Under the pieces are notes generated by a model. It saw nothing but the letters and a program-made list of their open reading frames with translations. It ran no database searches and was not told the DNA's origin. The translations under genes and the position numbers were made by a program. 32,198 nucleotides of DNA from a virus, in the IMG/VR virus record IMGVR_UViG_3300042332_000231, positions 1-32,198 of that record. One strand, given 5' to 3'. Below are positions 2,404 through 32,198 of the stretch, in pieces (positions within the stretch are counted from its first letter, which is position 1; the number at the start of each line of letters is the position of its first letter).

Positions 2404-3293
2404 TATTTTGCTTTAGCGTATTTTTTAATTAATGTATTTCCGTGTTGTTCTTGCTCAAAGTAAACCAATTTTTCTTTATCGAAAAAGATTTCGTGTTTAC
2501 CTATTTTCCCGTTTGAACGCGGTTTAATCTTATTAAAGTACAATTCTGCTTTATAAAACGTTGGGTCTTCGCGGTGTACTGTTACCATACATTTTCCCGA
2601 ATTAAACCATTCCGAACCACCCTTTAAGTCGTATGGAACGGGCGCGCTTCTTTTTCCGTTTTCCTTTTCCGTTAATTTCGGGTGGATAATCGTATGTAAA
2701 TGTAAGTCGTTGTCTTCGGCTATTTGGTTTCGATATGGCAACACGAACTCTAAGTATTGAGCGTAACCCCCGTAATCGTTGTAAGGGTGGTTTAAGTCCT
2801 TCCAAGAATCAATCGAAGCCGTTTCTAATCCTTCGTCTTTTTTTAATTGAACTGCGTAATCCCAAAATTCTATCGGTGTCATTTTCGCTTTGATATCGTC
2901 GCGCGTTAGTACCTTAAAGTGGTGCGTTATCCATTCGATAGCGTTTACTATTTCATCGTCCGTAATTACATTGTAACTACTTGGATTAAAACTTTTACCC
3001 GTTTTCTTGTTGATTAAGTCCGCGATAATTTCAACGTTCGAACCAACGTCAGGAAAATAAACTAAATGTTTCCAACCATAAAAACGGCTTGTATTCATTA
3101 AACACTCCATAAGTACCTGCGTTTTACCCGACATCGGAAACCCCGTCCAATCCGTACAATTACCTAAACTCATCGAATAATACTCGTCCATTCCTTCGAA
3201 GCCTAAGTATTTACCTTTTTCGTGGTAATTGTTTCTATACCTAAATAGGTCGTCTATTACTTCGTGTGCTTTTGTTATCTTAAATCCTTTCAT
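2403..3293 (-). CDS. DnaB/Twinkle-like RecA-fold ATPase, probable replicative helicase
   Basis: 296 aa: about the size of a DnaB C-terminal domain, with no primase or DnaB N-terminal domain. Walker A is GFPMSGKT (residues 51-58), and a Walker B-like strand ASIDSWKDL (159-167) ends in Asp162. A histidine-containing strand, LHLHTIIHP, follows near 205, as in DnaB-family ATPases that test nucleotide state. The likely role is unwinding at the phage fork. The gene follows the DUF6291-like protein, consistent with initiator, loader and helicase in one block. The leader AATTAAAAACGAACTATG resembles those of the early-slot genes. Confidence 0.8.
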   Translation of the reverse strand: MKGFKITKAHEVIDDLFRYRNNYHEKGKYLGFEGMDEYYSMSLGNCTDWTGFPMSGKTQVLMECLMNTSRFYGWKHLVYFPDVGSNVEIIADLINKKTGKSFNPSSYNVITDDEIVNAIEWITHHFKVLTRDDIKAKMTPIEFWDYAVQLKKDEGLETASIDSWKDLNHPYNDYGGYAQYLEFVLPYRNQIAEDNDLHLHTIIHPKLTEKENGKRSAPVPYDLKGGSEWFNSGKCMVTVHREDPTFYKAELYFNKIKPRSNGKIGKHEIFFDKEKLVYFEQEQHGNTLIKKYAKAK

Positions 3294-3306
3294 AGTTCGT
3301 TTTTAA

Positions 3307-3867
3307 TTATTGCCAAGCGAACTTAAACGGTTCGTCTTTTGGTTTCGGGTTGTTTTTATCTAACCATTTTTTAGCCGTCAAATATAAACTTTTATAGGCT
3401 TTATTTTTAGCGTAGTTTTCGATTTGGTCTAACGTGTCGTTAATTTGTTCTTCGGTGTATTGTTCTTTTAACTTTTCGAATTCGTCTTGAGTTATAGATA
3501 AATGAGCGAAGCGTCTATATATATTTACTTTCTCTTTTACTTTAACATTATCTTTATCAGCTATTTTTGTTATCGTTTGAATGCGTTTGCTATCGTTTGC
3601 TTCCGTTTGCCACCTTTTGTTAGCGCCTGCTTTGCCTGCTTCGCTTCGCTTTACTTTGGTATCTTCGAACTTAACAAGGTCGCGTTTAAGTTGTTGTTTA
3701 ATAGGCTCGAAAGCAATTTCAGTTATTAAGTCTTCCGCTATTGGGTCTTCGTCGTTAACGTAACTTAGAATGTGTTTGAACAATTTACCCGCTTGTTCGT
3801 CGGTTAGTTTGTTTATAGTGTACTGAAGGTCGCAATACAAAATAAATCCTTTTTTGTCTTTAGCCAT
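3307..3867 (-). CDS. DUF6291-like replication protein with DnaD-like C-terminal part
   Basis: 186 aa. The N-terminal half ([20 protein letters not shown], then [17 protein letters not shown] and [13 protein letters not shown]) matches what I remember of DUF6291, found in Bacteroidota phage and prophage replication regions. A basic linker ([14 protein letters not shown]) follows. The C-terminal half ([20 protein letters not shown], then [11 protein letters not shown]) resembles helicase-loader modules of the DnaD type. I use ATG 3867; an in-frame TTG at 3885 lies against the terminator. It probably loads the ATPase encoded next. Upstream lies a terminator-like hairpin, so expression may depend on readthrough. 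Confidence 0.75.
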
Positions 3868-23336: not shown

Positions 23337-23519
23337 CTATTTATTCGTGTTTTTGTAATTCATAACGTGTTCGTGCGCCTTAATAAGCATATCGAAGTGA
23401 GCGGTAAATCGTGCCATATTATTAAACACTATTCGAACGCGTTTGCCTGTTCGTTCCTGAATGTAAGATTCCACACGGGTAATCATTACCTGCATATCGT
23501 TAGTTTTATCGTATTGCAT
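23337..23519 (-). CDS. Small protein after the terminase (60 aa)
   Basis: Starts MQYDKTNDMQVMITRVESYI and continues QERTGKRVRIVFNNMARFTA. Basic, mixed alpha/beta, no Cys cluster. Overlaps the terminase end by 14 bases. Similar short ORFs follow terminases in related phages. Function unknown; it could be a head-completion or packaging accessory. Confidence 0.6.
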   Translation of the reverse strand: MQYDKTNDMQVMITRVESYIQERTGKRVRIVFNNMARFTAHFDMLIKAHEHVMNYKNTNK

Positions 23520-24666
23520 AGCTTCCGTATGTTGCGCCTATTCCGAGTGTTTCCATTTCGTGATAACGTAGCGCGTCTATTGCGTGGTTATTAAAGTCAA
23601 TAGGTTTTCTTAAGCGCCTTCCCGTCTTGTCGGTGTCCCAAATATACGAACGAAGTTCTTTGATTAAATCCACACTTTGATTAGTTACTAAATAATCTTG
23701 TCGTTGCATTACGTCAATTCCATAGTTAATTGAGTCTTTGCCCTTGGTTACTCCTTTAATCGTTATTCCTAAACGTCTTATTTCTTCGATTGATTTCGGC
23801 TCGGAAGAATCCGCGTACACTATTACATTTTTTGGTAGGCGCTTCGCTATTTCACTATTTACTAATCCTGTTTGGTAAACTAATTGGTTTACTATTCTTT
23901 GGTTATTGTATGCGTATATTTCAATTATTGCAGTCGGGTCGTTTGTATATCCAAAATCAAGTCCTATACCTAACAATCTTGCTTCTTTTGGTATCGTGTC
24001 AATTATTTTCCAATTACTGAAAACAACCCCCTCGAGCATTCCAAGTTGACCTTCCCCGTAAACTTTCCACCAATTCGCCCAATAAGAACTCGTCTTTGCT
24101 TTGTCTCGGTTCTTTTCAATTTGTTCTACTATTGATTGGTCTAACGCTTCGTTATCCTTGTAGGTAAGAATTAAAAAGTCGGAGTCGGGTTCGTCTTTTA
24201 GTTCGGTGTGTACCCAAAATTCGTTAGCAGGGTTGAAATCTAAATAAACTTCCTTTCGTGTTCGTATAGCCAACTCGTTGTAAGCGTCAAACGTTACATT
24301 ATTACATTCGTTGATATAAAGAATATCGCGCCTTGCACCACGAAGTTTACTCGAATCGTCTGCGGAAAAAAATTCGATAACGCTTCCGTTGGCGAACTCA
24401 TAACGAAGTAAAGATTTGTTAAACCTATCTTCGAAGAATCTGCCCGTCCATTTCATTATTTTTAGGAAATCCTTTAACGCACCCCGTCTTAAGTGGGGTA
24501 TTGTTTCTGCAACTACGCTTATTTCTATTCCGTGTATTGATAGCGCCTTGTTAATTAGCACCGCTAAAATTGAATAAGTTTTAGAAGCCGAAGTTCCACC
24601 CTGAATAATCTTAACGCGGTTCTTAAGTCCGAGTACCTTATTCGTTGCTGTTGTCCTCTTGAACAT
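23506..24666 (-). CDS. terL: Terminase large subunit
   Basis: 386 aa from ATG 24666, chosen because MFKRTTATNKVLGLKNRVKI is the usual start of this family; a start at 24729 would overlap the small subunit far more. ATPase motifs: QGGTSASKT (22-30) as Walker A and ILYINE (115-120) as Walker B. Nuclease motifs: GLDFGY (Asp237), VYADSSEP (Asp286), and NHAIDALRY (Asp364). It pumps DNA into the prohead and cuts concatemers. PBSX/Terminase_3-type relatives generally package by headful, consistent with the overlapping ends of this contig. Confidence 0.95.
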   Translation of the reverse strand: MFKRTTATNKVLGLKNRVKIIQGGTSASKTYSILAVLINKALSIHGIEISVVAETIPHLRRGALKDFLKIMKWTGRFFEDRFNKSLLRYEFANGSVIEFFSADDSSKLRGARRDILYINECNNVTFDAYNELAIRTRKEVYLDFNPANEFWVHTELKDEPDSDFLILTYKDNEALDQSIVEQIEKNRDKAKTSSYWANWWKVYGEGQLGMLEGVVFSNWKIIDTIPKEARLLGIGLDFGYTNDPTAIIEIYAYNNQRIVNQLVYQTGLVNSEIAKRLPKNVIVYADSSEPKSIEEIRRLGITIKGVTKGKDSINYGIDVMQRQDYLVTNQSVDLIKELRSYIWDTDKTGRRLRKPIDFNNHAIDALRYHEMETLGIGATYGSYAIR

Positions 24667-24973
24667 CGGGGAATAAAGGAATTTCGATATTTGTTTGTTC
24701 GATTTGCTGAACGGGTGCGCCATAACCACTATCCATTAATGCTTTGTACGCGTTCACGTCTCCTTCACGTGCTTTTTTAATTAGCGCCAAAGTCATTAAG
24801 TCCTCTTGCGACATTGTTTCGTTCTCGCCCGTTAAAGGGTTTTTTAGGTTTTGGTTAACTTCTAACCATTGCCGTGCTATTGTACTTCGATTTTTACTTC
24901 CTTTTGGTCGTCCGTTAGGATTTCCGCTTTCGCCTTTACCCCAAGCAGGCCTTAAATTATCTTCTTTGTTCAT
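24638..24973 (-). CDS. terS: Terminase small subunit candidate (DUF5681-like)
   Basis: 111 aa. Contains WGKGESGNPNGRPKGSKNRS near the N-terminus, the DUF5681-type GNPNGRPKG motif, then a helical DNA-binding part (LIKKAREGDVNAYKALMDSG) and an acidic tail. It precedes the large subunit and overlaps its start by 29 bases. DUF5681 proteins typically sit here and are thought to recognise packaging DNA. If the genome carries modified bases, this protein must accept them. Confidence 0.75.
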   Translation of the reverse strand: MNKEDNLRPAWGKGESGNPNGRPKGSKNRSTIARQWLEVNQNLKNPLTGENETMSQEDLMTLALIKKAREGDVNAYKALMDSGYGAPVQQIEQTNIEIPLFPDVQEDNSNE

Positions 24974-24992: not shown

Positions 24993-25787
24993 TTATTTAA
25001 TACCTACAAAGGCTTTTAATGGATAAAAAACTAATGAATTCCTGTAACCTTTTTCGTGTAATGGAATAATTGGTGTAACTCCGTGAACATTTCTCCACGC
25101 AGGATAAACTAAAATTGAATTATCTATTTGTCCTATCGTTGCATTGTAATCAGGAACGTGTAAATCACCACCCTTTGCATTTTTTTGTTTACAGATGATT
25201 ACGTTTACTGCCCCTACAATATTACCCGTATCCTTATGGAATGGCGCGGATATATTATAATTAGAAATTGAACTTGTAAACAAATTACCAAACTTCCATT
25301 TATCAGGAACATTTTGAAATAACTCTATTTGCTTTTCGTATTGCTTTGGTAGTATTTCTTTGATTAATTGTTCGCTTTCTTTAGCTAACATTAACATCGC
25401 TTTTATAAATGTTTGTGCTGAATCAACGGAATGTACACTTGATATAGTTGGATAAGGTCTCCTCATATGCGGCTTTGGTGGAACTCCGCCTAAAATACAA
25501 CTCCATTGTGAAACTACATTTTTATAATTATATACACCTTTTTCTATATTAAATCCATCAGTTTGCTTTCTATCCATTTGACTTTTTGGAACTTTTTTTG
25601 TTCTTAACTCAGCATTCGCTAAATCAGCCAATTTACACATTTTTTCAGGCATTTTTGTTAAATAAAATCCTATCGGTTCTCCGTCAGCATAAAATATACA
25701 ATCTTCAGTAATGTTTGGCTCTATGTACTCGCAGGTTTCTCCTATTTTTCGTTCGTGTTTTTGCAAAACAAGGTCTATTCTTTTCAT
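24993..25787 (-). CDS. TET/JBP-type 2OG-Fe(II) dioxygenase (DNA base oxidation)
   Basis: 264 aa from ATG 25787, whose overlap with the upstream stop (ATGA) is typical here; an in-frame ATG at 25805 would add six residues. The core reads FTSSISNYNISAPFHKDTGN, then GAVNVI and KGGDLHVPDYNATIG, VHGVTPI and YRNSLVFYPL. It has the metal triad His184-x-Asp186 and His235, and Arg249 for 2-oxoglutarate. The Asn before HxD, the GG.L..P.Y stretch and the HG.TP segment are the phage TET/JBP pattern, not that of prolyl hydroxylases. These enzymes hydroxylate 5-methylcytosine or thymine in DNA. With the glycosyltransferase next door, a glycosylated base is a strong prediction. More A/T-rich than its neighbours. 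Confidence 0.85.
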   Translation of the reverse strand: MKRIDLVLQKHERKIGETCEYIEPNITEDCIFYADGEPIGFYLTKMPEKMCKLADLANAELRTKKVPKSQMDRKQTDGFNIEKGVYNYKNVVSQWSCILGGVPPKPHMRRPYPTISSVHSVDSAQTFIKAMLMLAKESEQLIKEILPKQYEKQIELFQNVPDKWKFGNLFTSSISNYNISAPFHKDTGNIVGAVNVIICKQKNAKGGDLHVPDYNATIGQIDNSILVYPAWRNVHGVTPIIPLHEKGYRNSLVFYPLKAFVGIK

Positions 25788-26689
25788 ATTAATAATTTTT
25801 TCCATAAATCATTTTCAATATCAGTAGGAATCAAGTTGCTTATCTTTCGTTTTTGTTTCAAAGCGTCTATTAATTCATTTTCGTTAGACACTGCATAACA
25901 ATTTTCTCCGTGTTTATATACACTATTTGGAACGTTACACCAATTTTTATGAAGTATTAATCCGCAATCGTGATATTCTGCTTCCAAAAATGTATATTGA
26001 GTTCCGCCCCCATCGTTTTTAATTGTTGACATATCTACTAAATATCTTGTTTCGGCATATAATTTGCTAATATCATTTAGATTTTTCGAATAATAACCCT
26101 TGTAGTATTTATCAAACCCAAGTTCTTTTAATTTATGAAAGTAATAAATGTGATTTTTATATCCATAAATTTCTATGTCCGCGCCTAAATTATTTGCTTT
26201 ACAAATTATATCCGTATTTTTATCAAAATCAACCCTTGACAAAGACCTATTATATTTTTTATCTAAATTATACTTTGGATATTTGTAAAATGGGTGCTTA
26301 AAAAAATTATTTTCAATTCCCATTTTGTTCAACAATTTATGAACGGTTTCTCTAATTGTTACAACTTGATTTCTCTTTGCGAATTCTATAACTTCAGGAG
26401 ATAATTCTGTAGGGTCGTGTATTACAATTGTAGCATTGTTAAAATGTTTCAGCAATTCATAATGAGCTTTGTCAACTGCTAAGATAATAGGGTTTTGAAA
26501 ATTATGTATAGCGGTTTTCTTGATATTCTTATACTGAATATCACCATAAAATTGACCACCACCCTTAAAAGTTTCTTTTACTTTTATAACGTGATTTTCA
26601 TTGAATATCTTTGCTAAATGATAAGAAAAAGACACCCATCCACCGTATTGTGAATTTGATAAATAAAATAATTTATTATTCAAAATCAT
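25784..26689 (-). CDS. GT-B glycosyltransferase, probable DNA base glycosylation
   Basis: 301 aa. N-terminal Rossmann half opens FYLSNSQYGGWVSFSYHLAK. The C-terminal half contains DIEIYGYKNHIYYFHKLKEL and, at 220-240, STIKNDGGGTQYTFLEAEYH, the sugar-nucleotide region of GT4-like enzymes, with Glu residues as in their E-x7-E motif. The sugar and acceptor are unknown. Tight ATGA junctions tie it to the ParB-like gene upstream and the dioxygenase downstream, so the likely acceptor is the hydroxymethyl base made by the latter. Strongly A/T-rich, with fewer CG-containing codons than the flanking late genes, suggesting acquisition as a unit with the dioxygenase. Confidence 0.8.
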   Translation of the reverse strand: MILNNKLFYLSNSQYGGWVSFSYHLAKIFNENHVIKVKETFKGGGQFYGDIQYKNIKKTAIHNFQNPIILAVDKAHYELLKHFNNATIVIHDPTELSPEVIEFAKRNQVVTIRETVHKLLNKMGIENNFFKHPFYKYPKYNLDKKYNRSLSRVDFDKNTDIICKANNLGADIEIYGYKNHIYYFHKLKELGFDKYYKGYYSKNLNDISKLYAETRYLVDMSTIKNDGGGTQYTFLEAEYHDCGLILHKNWCNVPNSVYKHGENCYAVSNENELIDALKQKRKISNLIPTDIENDLWKKLLI

Positions 26690-27264
26690 AATTTATCCTT
26701 TTCTGTTTTCAAATATTCCATAATCATACCCCCTAAATAGGCTTCTCTTTCTCTCCAAAACTTTACAAGTTCTGATGCTTCTTCATAATGCTCGGCTTCA
26801 AATTCAATTTGTATAGCTTTTTTCACTCCGCCTGCCATATCCGTCAATTCATCATCCAAATCTTCTTCGTCAAGAATTGAATAATCCACTTCCGTTGGCA
26901 TTTCAGGAACAAACAACCCCCAATCGTTTAATAGTTCTGCATCCCATTCGTTTGCCAACACGTCCCAATCCCATTCTCCGAATCCAACGTTATCTTTTAC
27001 AATAAATTCGTCTTTTTGTTCGCTTGTAAGGTCGTTCGCCCTAACTATTGACACTTCACTATACCCCGCTTCTTTAAGCGCCTTAAAACGCATATTTCCG
27101 CCTAGTATAATGTTATTCTCATCCACTACTATTGGACGTAGTTCTAACATTTGCGGGAAGTCCTTAATTGATTTGACTAATTTCTTAAACTTTTCGTCTT
27201 TAATTAGCCTTGGGTTTTTCGGGTTCGGTTTAATTTCCGATATCTTAACCTTCAGTACTTCCAT
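26686..27264 (-). CDS. ParB/Srx-like domain protein
   Basis: 192 aa. The N-terminal 90 residues form a ParB/Srx domain: ISEIKPNPKNPR (8-19), LRPIVVDENNIILGGNMRFK (42-61) with the GGNMR signature, then KEAGYSEVSIV. The C-terminal half is acidic, with DYSILDEEDLDDELTDM, and a helical end (EEASELVKFWREREAYLGGM). Phage ParB-like proteins of this kind accompany DNA methylases or base-modification genes and may have ATPase, nuclease or sequence-guiding roles. It is coupled to the glycosyltransferase, so a part in DNA modification or in packaging of modified DNA is reasonable. Confidence 0.8.
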   Translation of the reverse strand: MEVLKVKISEIKPNPKNPRLIKDEKFKKLVKSIKDFPQMLELRPIVVDENNIILGGNMRFKALKEAGYSEVSIVRANDLTSEQKDEFIVKDNVGFGEWDWDVLANEWDAELLNDWGLFVPEMPTEVDYSILDEEDLDDELTDMAGGVKKAIQIEFEAEHYEEASELVKFWREREAYLGGMIMEYLKTEKDKL

Positions 27265-28460: not shown

Positions 28461-29111
28461 TTAAAATAATTTTGTTTGTGCTTTGTGGTTATTAATTCGT
28501 TCCATAGCCTTGTTAAAGTATTCCTCGTCAAGTTCGCACGCTGTGAGTTCAAAGCCGTAATCGTGGCACGCTATCGCAATACTTCCTGAACCTAAGTGAG
28601 TATCAAGTATCTTATCACCTTGCTTTGCGTAATTATCAAGAATCCATTTATAAAGTGCTACGGGTTTTTGTGTTGGGTGTATTCTTTGTTCGGGTCGTTG
28701 TTTTTGAAATCCATTCCATAGCCATTCAAATTTTCTAAGCCCTTTATTAAAACTCGTATAGGCTAATTCTCCATCACTAAAATCGGAATTACCATTTTTT
28801 TTATCCCAAAATATCCAACCCATACTTGGGGTTACAATTTTATCAATAAAGTAGTTCCCACCCCATATAATTTGATTTTTTGAAACCCTTTTTAGTTGTT
28901 CAAAGTATTCTAATTCAGGTGTTTTCAAATCCCAATCTTTTATATTATGCACTTTTTTAGTTGGGTTGTTCCATTTATCACTTTTTGTATTTTCCCTTTT
29001 TTTATTACTTTCTCCAATACCATACGGAGGGTCAACAATAGCCAAGTCAAAATACTTATCAGGGTATCGAGCCATTAAAAGCATATTATCCTCGTTCGTT
29101 ATTGTTAGCAT
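28461..29111 (-). CDS. DNA N6-adenine or N4-cytosine methyltransferase (beta class)
   Basis: 216 aa. Motif IV DPPY (27-30) comes first, then HPTQKP (145-150, motif X) and ILDTHLGSGSIA (near 168-179, motif I): the circular order of beta-class enzymes. DPPY favours adenine N6. There is no recognisable restriction partner, so this orphan enzyme probably protects phage DNA. It cannot make 5-methylcytosine; no cytosine-C5 enzyme motif (PCQ, ENV) is seen in the window. The gene is A/T-rich relative to the neighbours and may have been acquired separately. Confidence 0.88.
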   Translation of the reverse strand: MLTITNEDNMLLMARYPDKYFDLAIVDPPYGIGESNKKRENTKSDKWNNPTKKVHNIKDWDLKTPELEYFEQLKRVSKNQIIWGGNYFIDKIVTPSMGWIFWDKKNGNSDFSDGELAYTSFNKGLRKFEWLWNGFQKQRPEQRIHPTQKPVALYKWILDNYAKQGDKILDTHLGSGSIAIACHDYGFELTACELDEEYFNKAMERINNHKAQTKLF

Positions 29112-30229: not shown

Positions 30230-30897
30230 AAGGTTTGCATTAATAAGTTATAGTATTCTCTACATAGTTCGACACGTTCTTTAATTTGCTCAATTACGGA
30301 TTCGTCTTTTTGTACGAACCAATACTTTACACGTCTATTTTTCGGAATGTGGCTAAACTTATGCTTTGTTTCGATTTCTTCGCGTAGTTCTTGCGATTCA
30401 TCTATTAAATGAAACTTCCAATGTGCTCTACGGATTTCGTCTTCTACCATTTCGCTCGGAGTGTCTATAAGGCAATAAGCTAAAATGGATTCGTTCTTAC
30501 CCGTTAACCACATATATCCTTGGAGTTGGTAATAATAATCTTTGTTAGGTAACTCAGTTTCAAACCACGGAAACGTTGAAGCGTCCCAAGAACTTTTAAC
30601 GTCTATTAATACTTCGTCCGTGTTTACGTCGGGAGTTCCTGTTACCCAATCGTTCGTAAAATGTTCGTCGTTCTTGTAAATAAACTTAAAATTCAATACG
30701 TCGTTAACGAGTGCAATCGATTCTTCTTCGACTTCGTTTCCTTTGTCCGTGTAACGTGAACTAAACTCTTTTCGGATTCCGTACTTTTCTTTTAATACGA
30801 TTTCTTCTACGTACGACTTTGCCGTTTGAGATAGGACTTCCCCCGACTTGCGGGGGTTAGTCATTATCTTACCAATTTGAGAACATCGGACTTTCAT
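30226..30897 (-). CDS. Lambda-exonuclease/YqaJ-like recombination nuclease, full copy
   Basis: 223 aa. CSQIGKIMTNPRKSGEVLSQ at the N-terminus, a PD-(D/E)XK core (TGTPDVNTDEVLIDVKSSWD) with Asp, Asp and Lys, and YYYQLQGYMWLTGKNESILA carrying the conserved Gln-containing helix of the YqaJ/lambda-exo fold. The enzyme would digest one strand from a double-strand end and hand the other to ERF. It follows ERF with an ATGA overlap, forming a two-component recombinase. A second, diverged copy begins at 315. Confidence 0.88.
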   Translation of the reverse strand: MKVRCSQIGKIMTNPRKSGEVLSQTAKSYVEEIVLKEKYGIRKEFSSRYTDKGNEVEEESIALVNDVLNFKFIYKNDEHFTNDWVTGTPDVNTDEVLIDVKSSWDASTFPWFETELPNKDYYYQLQGYMWLTGKNESILAYCLIDTPSEMVEDEIRRAHWKFHLIDESQELREEIETKHKFSHIPKNRRVKYWFVQKDESVIEQIKERVELCREYYNLLMQTL

Positions 30898-31412
30898 ACG
30901 TTTTCAATTAATTTGTTTTGACCTTCAGTTAATTCAAAATTTTCAATTAATTGTTCCTTGGTGTATTTCCCTTCGGCAATCATTTCTAAAGCCTTACCCA
31001 ATCGTTTGTTATCAATGGTAGGCTTTTTCTTTATTTGTTCGCCTGAAGCGTCCGTGTCTTTGTCGGTAACTAATCCGAGTGCGGAACTTAAAGCGTATCG
31101 ACGAAAGTAAGTAACACCGCTTCCAAAACTTTGGTAATCGTTCATTCCCTTTAATTCGACTTGCGGAATGGCTACTTTTGATTCTAACGTTTCGCCACTT
31201 TCAACGTGAAAAATAACCGTAGCAATATAGTCGATTCCTTCTTTAGTGTCGAGCAACTGCGTAAAGCCTAATCCGTGTTTCTTTAAAAGCGGATTAACTA
31301 CTTCAAAAATCTTAGGTAAATCCGCGTAAGAATACCCGTAGCCTTGAGTTCCTTTGTGAATTACGGGAACTTCTTGTTGGAAGGCTGCCAACGATTTAAA
31401 TAAATTTTTCAT
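30894..31412 (-). CDS. erf: ERF-family single-strand annealing protein, copy B
   Basis: 172 aa from ATG 31412. Contains KGTQGYGYSYADLPKIFEVV and GSGVTYFRRYALSSALGL as in copy A, with substitutions in the C-terminal tail (EQLIENFELTEGQNKLIENV). It anneals complementary single strands made by the downstream exonuclease. The leader carries the pseudoknot at 31430-31455 and ACGCTATG. The variable gene upstream is not homologous to the one preceding copy A. Confidence 0.93.
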   Translation of the reverse strand: MKNLFKSLAAFQQEVPVIHKGTQGYGYSYADLPKIFEVVNPLLKKHGLGFTQLLDTKEGIDYIATVIFHVESGETLESKVAIPQVELKGMNDYQSFGSGVTYFRRYALSSALGLVTDKDTDASGEQIKKKPTIDNKRLGKALEMIAEGKYTKEQLIENFELTEGQNKLIENV

Positions 31413-31429
31413 AGCGTATAAATTAAAAC

Positions 31430-31455
31430 GTGCGTTAACCGAGTCGCACCCCTCG
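31430..31455 (-). promoter_or_regulatory. H-type RNA pseudoknot leader, instance 3
   Basis: Minus strand CGAG-GGGTGCGA-CTCG-GTTAA-CGCAC. Identical to instance 1 except for the compensatory pair (G-C in stem 1 where instance 1 has A-T). Six bases after the stop codon of the slot gene, 17 bases before the ERF start. Confidence 0.65.
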
Positions 31456-31461
31456 TTTTTT

Positions 31462-31767
31462 TTATTGTTTTACTAATCCTTTAACGTAATAAACGTCAAC
31501 ATTCATATTTTCTTTATCGTCCGACGAAACGCACCCGTCGTAAAACACTCCTTTTCCAAATACCTTTTCAATGTCCCCGTCAAAAATACAACCGTCGTAT
31601 TCCACAACTAAACACGCAAAAGGTTGGCCAATCGTACGCCCTAAAAATATACTGTTGTTATGCGTTCTTTGCGTTGTTTCTTGGCGACGGTATAACCATA
31701 AATGGTTAATGTTTCGCGCGTTCAAACTCCTTTGGTACTGCTCGGTTGTTAATTTAATTGTTTTCAT
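31462..31767 (-). CDS. Variable early-slot protein B (unknown function)
   Basis: 101 aa. Starts MKTIKLTTEQYQRSLNARNI, then NNSIFLGRTIGQPFACLVVE and YDGCIFDGDIEKVFGKGVFY. Two YDGC tetrads flank a short acidic segment and may mark a repeat or metal site. No known family recognised. Start 31767 is set by ACGCTATG and by the -7 box at 31792-31799. It replaces the 77-aa protein of the other end copy, in the same place and context. Confidence 0.7.
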   Translation of the reverse strand: MKTIKLTTEQYQRSLNARNINHLWLYRRQETTQRTHNNSIFLGRTIGQPFACLVVEYDGCIFDGDIEKVFGKGVFYDGCVSSDDKENMNVDVYYVKGLVKQ

Positions 31768-31791
31768 AGCGTTTTCGTTTTTAATTATACA

Positions 31792-31822
31792 CAAATATAA
31801 ATACTATTTTTTAATCTGCAAA
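31792..31822 (-). promoter_or_regulatory. Early promoter, slot B
   Basis: TTTG at 31819-31822, a 19-base spacer and TATATTTG at 31792-31799 on the minus strand, an ideal Bacteroidota promoter. The leader to the ATG (GTATAATTAAAAACG and ACGCTATG) matches those at 1115 and 5663. Confidence 0.82.
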
Positions 31823-31839
31823 CTTTTTTGAATTTTTTT

Positions 31840-32198
31840 TTATATTTTTTTTTCATTTAAATTATTTGACCTATCAAAATAAGCCATTAACTCAATATCA
31901 TTATAGGAATGCTCACGCGGTTTTCTTCCTCCTATTCTTATTTCTCCTTTAAGTTTTTCTAGTTTGCCGTAAATAATACCGTCGTAACATTTCCAAATAA
32001 TTACGGGGTTAATCTTTTTATCCATTAACTTAACTAATTTTCTAACTGCTATTGGTAGCGGGTAGGCTTCTTGTATTGTTTTGTTTCTTCCTTTTACTTC
32101 TGCGTAACCTATTATTCGTTCGTCTTTAATTAGTTCAAAGTCTATATCGTGTTCGTCTAGTTTTCTACAACTTAATTCGTATTCATCGCAAAAAATTG
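31840..32198 (-). CDS. PD-(D/E)XK-type nuclease, copy B (N-terminus cut by window edge)
   Basis: The last 119 codons of the protein whose complete copy is at 1201-1608; the reading frame is open to the window end. It keeps the DIDFELIKDERIIGYAEVKG core and differs mainly in the last residues (FDRSNNLNEKKI against FDRSKELIEKKI). The true start lies beyond the window. Confidence 0.75.
   Translation of the reverse strand, partial: IFCDEYELSCRKLDEHDIDFELIKDERIIGYAEVKGRNKTIQEAYPLPIAVRKLVKLMDKKINPVIIWKCYDGIIYGKLEKLKGEIRIGGRKPREHSYNDIELMAYFDRSNNLNEKKI

Follow-up and report, generated by a model that had tools for sequence, protein, structure and literature searches.

Phage cassettes combining TET, glycosyltransferase and ParB genes are of a kind already known: TET/JBP genes accompanied by a TAGT glycosyltransferase and ParB were reportedly described by Iyer et al. 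in 2013, the TAGT name is used in Pfam (PF20691), and actinophage examples have been annotated. Cassettes of TET/JBP and glycosyltransferase genes were predicted long ago, and their substrate base has seldom been settled. In kinetoplastids, base J synthesis proceeds by hydroxylation of thymine (JBP1/JBP2) and subsequent glycosylation by a glucosyltransferase. Hydroxymethyluracil is the proposed intermediate of thymidine hypermodification in phages ViI and M6 and in actinophages Tonitrus, CaiB and Hangman, hydroxymethyl-dU being proposed to be made at the nucleotide level in M6 and ViI (PMC6449724). As quoted in PMC12730594, the phage systems of Burke et al. 2021 join TET/JBP and glycosyltransferase genes with a C5-cytosine methylase. 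The DNA alpha-glucosyltransferase of phage T4 has for its own acceptor hydroxymethylcytosine made as a nucleotide.

The window, i.e., the whole stretch of 32,198 nucleotides analyzed here, harbored a related cassette next to its terminase genes (Table 1). TAGT cassettes share with it the TET/JBP gene, the ParB neighbor and a dedicated glycosyltransferase, TAGT being found in the same slot in sister cassettes, but the glycosyltransferase of the window displayed a predicted GT-B fold and no TAGT match. Thymine hydroxylation followed by glycosylation, as in base J synthesis, is also the chemistry proposed for the window, whereas here the carrier is a phage, the partner a ParB-like protein and the putative sugar-transferring enzyme a GT-B protein. 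The hydroxymethyluracil intermediate would be shared with ViI, M6 and the three actinophages, and the ParB-TET order is common with the latter, while a glycosyltransferase stands in place of the ADDT of thymidine hypermodification systems. The systems of Burke et al. resemble the window in their TET/JBP and glycosyltransferase genes and differ in their C5-cytosine methylase, which the window lacks; the T4 alpha-glucosyltransferase has the same GT-B fold, with 12% identity and no family match. We consider it fairly probable that the cassette acts after replication, turning thymine into 5-hydroxymethyluracil and then into a glycosylated, base-J-like product. The analysis adds a GT-B family dedicated to TET and missing from the family libraries searched, and this family and the measured exchange of the tailoring slot appear to be new, priority being uncertain given limited literature access.

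Table 1. Position of the cassette and neighboring genes in the window, with the basis of each assignment
Feature	Coordinates	Strand	Basis
ParB N-terminal-domain protein, 192 aa	26686..27264	-	PF02195, 31.6 bits (cut-off 26.3)
Predicted GT-B glycosyltransferase, 301 aa, variable-slot tailoring gene	25784..26689	-	predicted fold, TET adjacency
TET/JBP Fe(II)/2-oxoglutarate dioxygenase, 270 aa (264 aa from ATG at 25787)	24993..25805	-	PF12851, predicted fold, catalytic residues
Putative small terminase subunit (DUF5681)	24638..24973	-	PF18932, 56.6 bits; position between TET and large terminase
Large terminase subunit	23506..24729	-	PF04466/PF17288; 51.5% identity to Flavobacterium phage terminases
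N6/N4 DNA methyltransferase	28461-29111		PF01555, 66 bits

A sequence-only reading had described three open reading frames with ATGA overlaps immediately preceding the terminase, and this arrangement was confirmed, at the dioxygenase junction only when the second ATG was taken as start. On the minus strand, the ParB_N gene was followed by the 301-aa gene, the dioxygenase gene and, directly, the small and then the large terminase genes. An ATGA was common to the ParB gene and the 301-aa gene, and the junction of the latter with the dioxygenase gene was likewise ATGA if translation began at the second ATG (MKRID), yielding the 264-aa form; the upstream in-frame ATG yielded 270 aa and a 22-base overlap. 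The second ATG was the start in most dioxygenase relatives, and the upstream one was also present in most cassettes with this GT-B. The three cassette genes are translationally coupled, and the coupling recurred in hundreds of contigs.

The carrier was probably a small phage of flavobacteria, a host already proposed from the sequence and supported by the terminase, which resembled those of Flavobacterium phages, and by a putative capsid protein (31% identity) that matched only Nonlabens phages. The ends of the window were similar (positions 1-880 and 30583-31462, 93% identical; 1109-1559 and 31761-32198, 91%; about 1.3 kb in total), which may point to an assembly, from two strains, of a genome that is circular or terminally redundant. 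Since the contig ends were about 91-93% alike, the non-redundant part may amount to about 30.6 kb, the completeness of the genome being unproven. An Erf-like gene was duplicated within the similar ends. The N6/N4 DNA methyltransferase gene, located upstream of the cassette, possibly encodes a separate means of self-protection.

The dioxygenase matched Pfam Tet_JBP (PF12851) with 40 bits (E 2.9e-10), above the curated cut-off of 34.9. Its structural model (pLDDT 78.9, pTM 0.81) aligned best with TET2 (Z 18.2 over 251 residues), NgTET1 (17.4), CcTet (15.6) and CMD1 (15.1), while lower scores were obtained for FTO (Z 13.7) and prolyl hydroxylase PHD2 (Z 12.4). When the family profile was compared with solved chains, TET2 ranked first, weakly (E 0.008). 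The catalytic residues were H190-x-D192, H241 and R255 in the 270-aa numbering (184/186/235/249 when counted on the 264-aa form). No variation was seen at H190 and D192 among the 216 aligned sequences of the family, nor at H241, R255 and Y261 among the 212 that have the column. Pfam, the predicted fold and this family-wide conservation thus bore out the TET/JBP assignment that had been made from the HxD...H and Arg pattern. Placement in another 2-oxoglutarate family such as the prolyl hydroxylases, named beforehand as the outcome that would speak against it, did not occur and was rejected on the lower fold score. Membership of the TET/JBP family is accordingly supported, with conserved Fe and 2-oxoglutarate residues, and the enzyme is predicted, from sequence and model, to oxidize C5-methyl pyrimidines in DNA.

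Identity to solved TETs was only about 12%, which leaves room for a target other than a DNA pyrimidine (e.g., RNA or protein) and for an incidental linkage to ParB; such a target is highly improbable, as the top folds were all TETs acting on DNA bases, ahead of FTO and the prolyl hydroxylase, and the linkage to ParB and terminase genes was constant. The label "queuine tRNA-ribosyltransferase", carried by TET/JBP proteins in PHROG 6059 and in several GenBank records, is contradicted by the Tet_JBP match and the TET fold, and is in our reading an annotation error. TET relatives in cellular genomes were found in two uncultured betaproteobacterial bins, one of which was the only one of 398 genomes with PF12851 to hold a relative.

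The 301-aa protein had no match above cut-off in Pfam, PHROGs or NCBIfam, no relative in the phage isolate collection searched or in the scan of cellular genomes, and no homologue by sequence among solved structures. A TAGT identity was rejected, no match to PF20691 being obtained for this protein or anywhere in the window at E 0.1. Its structural model (pLDDT 90.1) displayed two Rossmann domains in a GT-B fold. The top Foldseek matches were GT-B glycosyltransferases (E down to 1e-6), including the T4 alpha- and beta-glucosyltransferases, and VIA-align gave Z 20.1 for HepE and 18.7 for T4 alpha-glucosyltransferase (287 residues, 12% identity). The T4 structure matched (1y8z) included bound DNA with a 5-hydroxymethyluracil base. 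The earlier GT-B reading of this protein was upheld by the predicted fold, whose closest counterparts were GT4-type enzymes and the T4 DNA alpha-glucosyltransferase. Sugar-transfer activity is predicted, and the GT4-like fold of the model suggests a retaining mechanism.

At least 596 related loci were found by scan, and neighborhoods were counted over 215 distinct TET loci. A ParB-like gene was located upstream of TET in 203 of these, and a contig edge cut 11 of the other 12, so that the ParB-TET order is far from chance. The ParB-like nature of the 192-aa protein, also proposed from the sequence, held with a ParB_N match above the Pfam cut-off, and the protein is likely a DNA-binding or targeting partner. 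Two ParB-like genes were found close together upstream of TET in a few loci (L108, L115, L116, L272, L276).

The slot between ParB and TET was most commonly occupied by an FkbM methyltransferase (93 of the 215 loci, plus 7 at contig edges), followed by TAGT (39 loci, plus a small number of diverged ones), GT-B (17 loci) and a P-loop kinase and/or ADDT, to which amidotransferase or GNAT genes were optionally added (about 9 loci). It was empty in 36 loci, a few of them with tailoring genes after TET, and about 30 loci displayed a bare ParB-TET pair followed by terminase genes. In a TET tree comprising 123 rows, the slot occupant required at least 49 changes, indicating frequent swapping, although this number overstates swap events because the tree was quick and many branches were weak; the well-supported branches alone forced several changes per occupant type. 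GT-B required 10 changes for 11 rows, a value as low being reached in 138 of 500 label shuffles, and was thus hardly more clustered than shuffled labels. The TET of the window was 84% identical to a TET accompanied by TAGT, and some GT-B relatives were 87-90% identical, yet their neighboring TETs only 64-68%. Because TET and GT-B identities disagree between loci, the tailoring gene was exchanged independently of the flanking genes.

The GT-B family encompassed 28 loci in IMG/VR and adjoined a TET gene in 26; of the remaining two, L112 was cut at a contig edge and L120 had no TET found nearby. Its partners belonged to the TET clade of the window and to a diverged TET clade still passing Tet_JBP (L114, L119), and both the ParB-GT-TET and the ParB-TET-GT orders were seen. 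This recurrent pairing is the best indication that GT-B serves the TET product, and we infer that it glycosylates the oxidized base. Oxidation alone might matter, with GT-B a mere neighbor acting for example on RNA, protein or a cell-surface sugar, as GT4-type folds are widespread and reveal no acceptor, L120 had no TET found near its GT-B, and about 30 relatives consisted of ParB-TET without a tailoring gene. Adjacency to TET in 26 of 28 loci, across two diverged TET clades, and a slot otherwise filled by TAGT or ADDT, each of which is linked to DNA bases, make this quite improbable. The GT-B gene of L120 (5007-5954) was 41% identical, and its contig also contained a 515-aa gene without Pfam match that resembled capsid genes of small DNA viruses of eukaryotes.

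Thymine is the favored substrate base, on the grounds of the ADDT context, the lack of a C5-methylase and of a hydroxymethylase, and residue Leu263. In the cytosine route, which is rather unlikely, TET would oxidize 5-methylcytosine provided by the host or by a separate C5-methylase, and GT-B would glycosylate 5-hydroxymethylcytosine, as in the phage systems of Burke and colleagues; published phage TETs do act on 5-methylcytosine (PMC12730594, citing Burke 2021). ADDT (amino acid:DNA transferase family) is an enzyme of the thymidine hypermodification route. No ADDT (PF18724) was found within the window. ADDT and/or a P-loop kinase occurred in the same neighborhood in about a dozen relatives, and the presence of ADDT there argues against cytosine. 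Salmonella phages of the Ackermann type harbor ADDT relatives, and in phage ViI 43% of the T positions are occupied by 5-(2-aminoethoxy)methyl-dU (PMC6449724). Actinophage cassettes displayed ParB-TET-ADDT, mostly with a kinase, as in Mycobacterium phage Hangman (ParB-TET-ADDT-kinase), and the authors of Tonitrus interpret their cassette as thymidine hypermodification (PMC11955845). As the P-loop kinases of sister cassettes had no family match and fitted no hydroxymethyluracil-kinase model, that name would be tentative for them; the label "terminase small subunit" (PHROG 800) is misleading for the same proteins.

A profile search detected no C5-cytosine methylase (PF00145) in the window, whose completeness is unproven, so the phage itself may differ. 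The six of 30 long cassette contigs that encoded PF00145 are in keeping with the cytosine route, but the gene lay away from the cassette in them, and the other 24, window included, were without it. A thymidylate-synthase-type hydroxymethylase was found in none of the 30 long cassette records, window included, and the hydroxyl therefore most likely comes from TET. In the pocket, Asn195 corresponds to TET2 Asn1387, which contacts N4 of 5-methylcytosine, so that cytosine could also be accommodated. The histidine that contacts O2 of 5-methylcytosine in TET2 (His1904) and NgTET1 (His297) (PMC11040006), however, is replaced by Leu263 in the window, in a register based on a profile alignment with TET2, and by leucine in 211 of 212 family members.

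With thymine as substrate, the ParB-like protein would bind phage DNA and recruit the cassette enzymes, the TET/JBP enzyme would hydroxylate the methyl group of thymine in the phage DNA to give 5-hydroxymethyluracil, and the GT-B enzyme would transfer a sugar from a nucleotide-sugar donor to the hydroxyl of this base. The product would be a base-J-like glycosylated base that blocks host nucleases, and the modified DNA would then be packaged. Late, post-replicative action fits the position before the terminase; protection from nucleases is suggested by analogy with other phages.

About an even chance is given to a broader reading, in which a ParB-TET core widespread in phages makes 5-hydroxymethyluracil in finished DNA and the quickly swapped slot (FkbM methylation, one of two unrelated glycosyltransferases, amino-acid linkage) sets the final base, perhaps outpacing host enzymes, the window then representing base J made in a bacteriophage with a GT-B enzyme. 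The conserved core and its interchangeable tailoring genes, spread over several hundred phage contigs, offer a natural comparison in which one oxidation step leads to differing end products. A phage counterpart of base J is predicted, as is a methylated 5-hydroxymethyluracil for phages with FkbM in the slot, including cultured Prochlorococcus phages, in which it is open to a direct nucleoside test; FkbM may O-methylate 5-hydroxymethyluracil. No paper on methoxymethyluracil was found in a literature search of limited access.

FkbM slot genes were located, for instance, at L005:3125-3820 and L099:11303-12001, and MED4-184 and MED4-117, two cultured phages of Prochlorococcus, carried FkbM in the order ParB-FkbM-TET. 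The ParB-TET pair of L272, L273 and L274 preceded a 332-335-aa gene, then ADDT and then a P-loop kinase, a set that we read as a fuller thymidine-type pathway supplied by TET; the 332-335-aa gene, without Pfam match, possibly encodes a PLP-dependent enzyme. In L244, a putative FAD-dependent oxidoreductase gene (3020-3832) occupied the slot between ADDT-like and FkbM genes.
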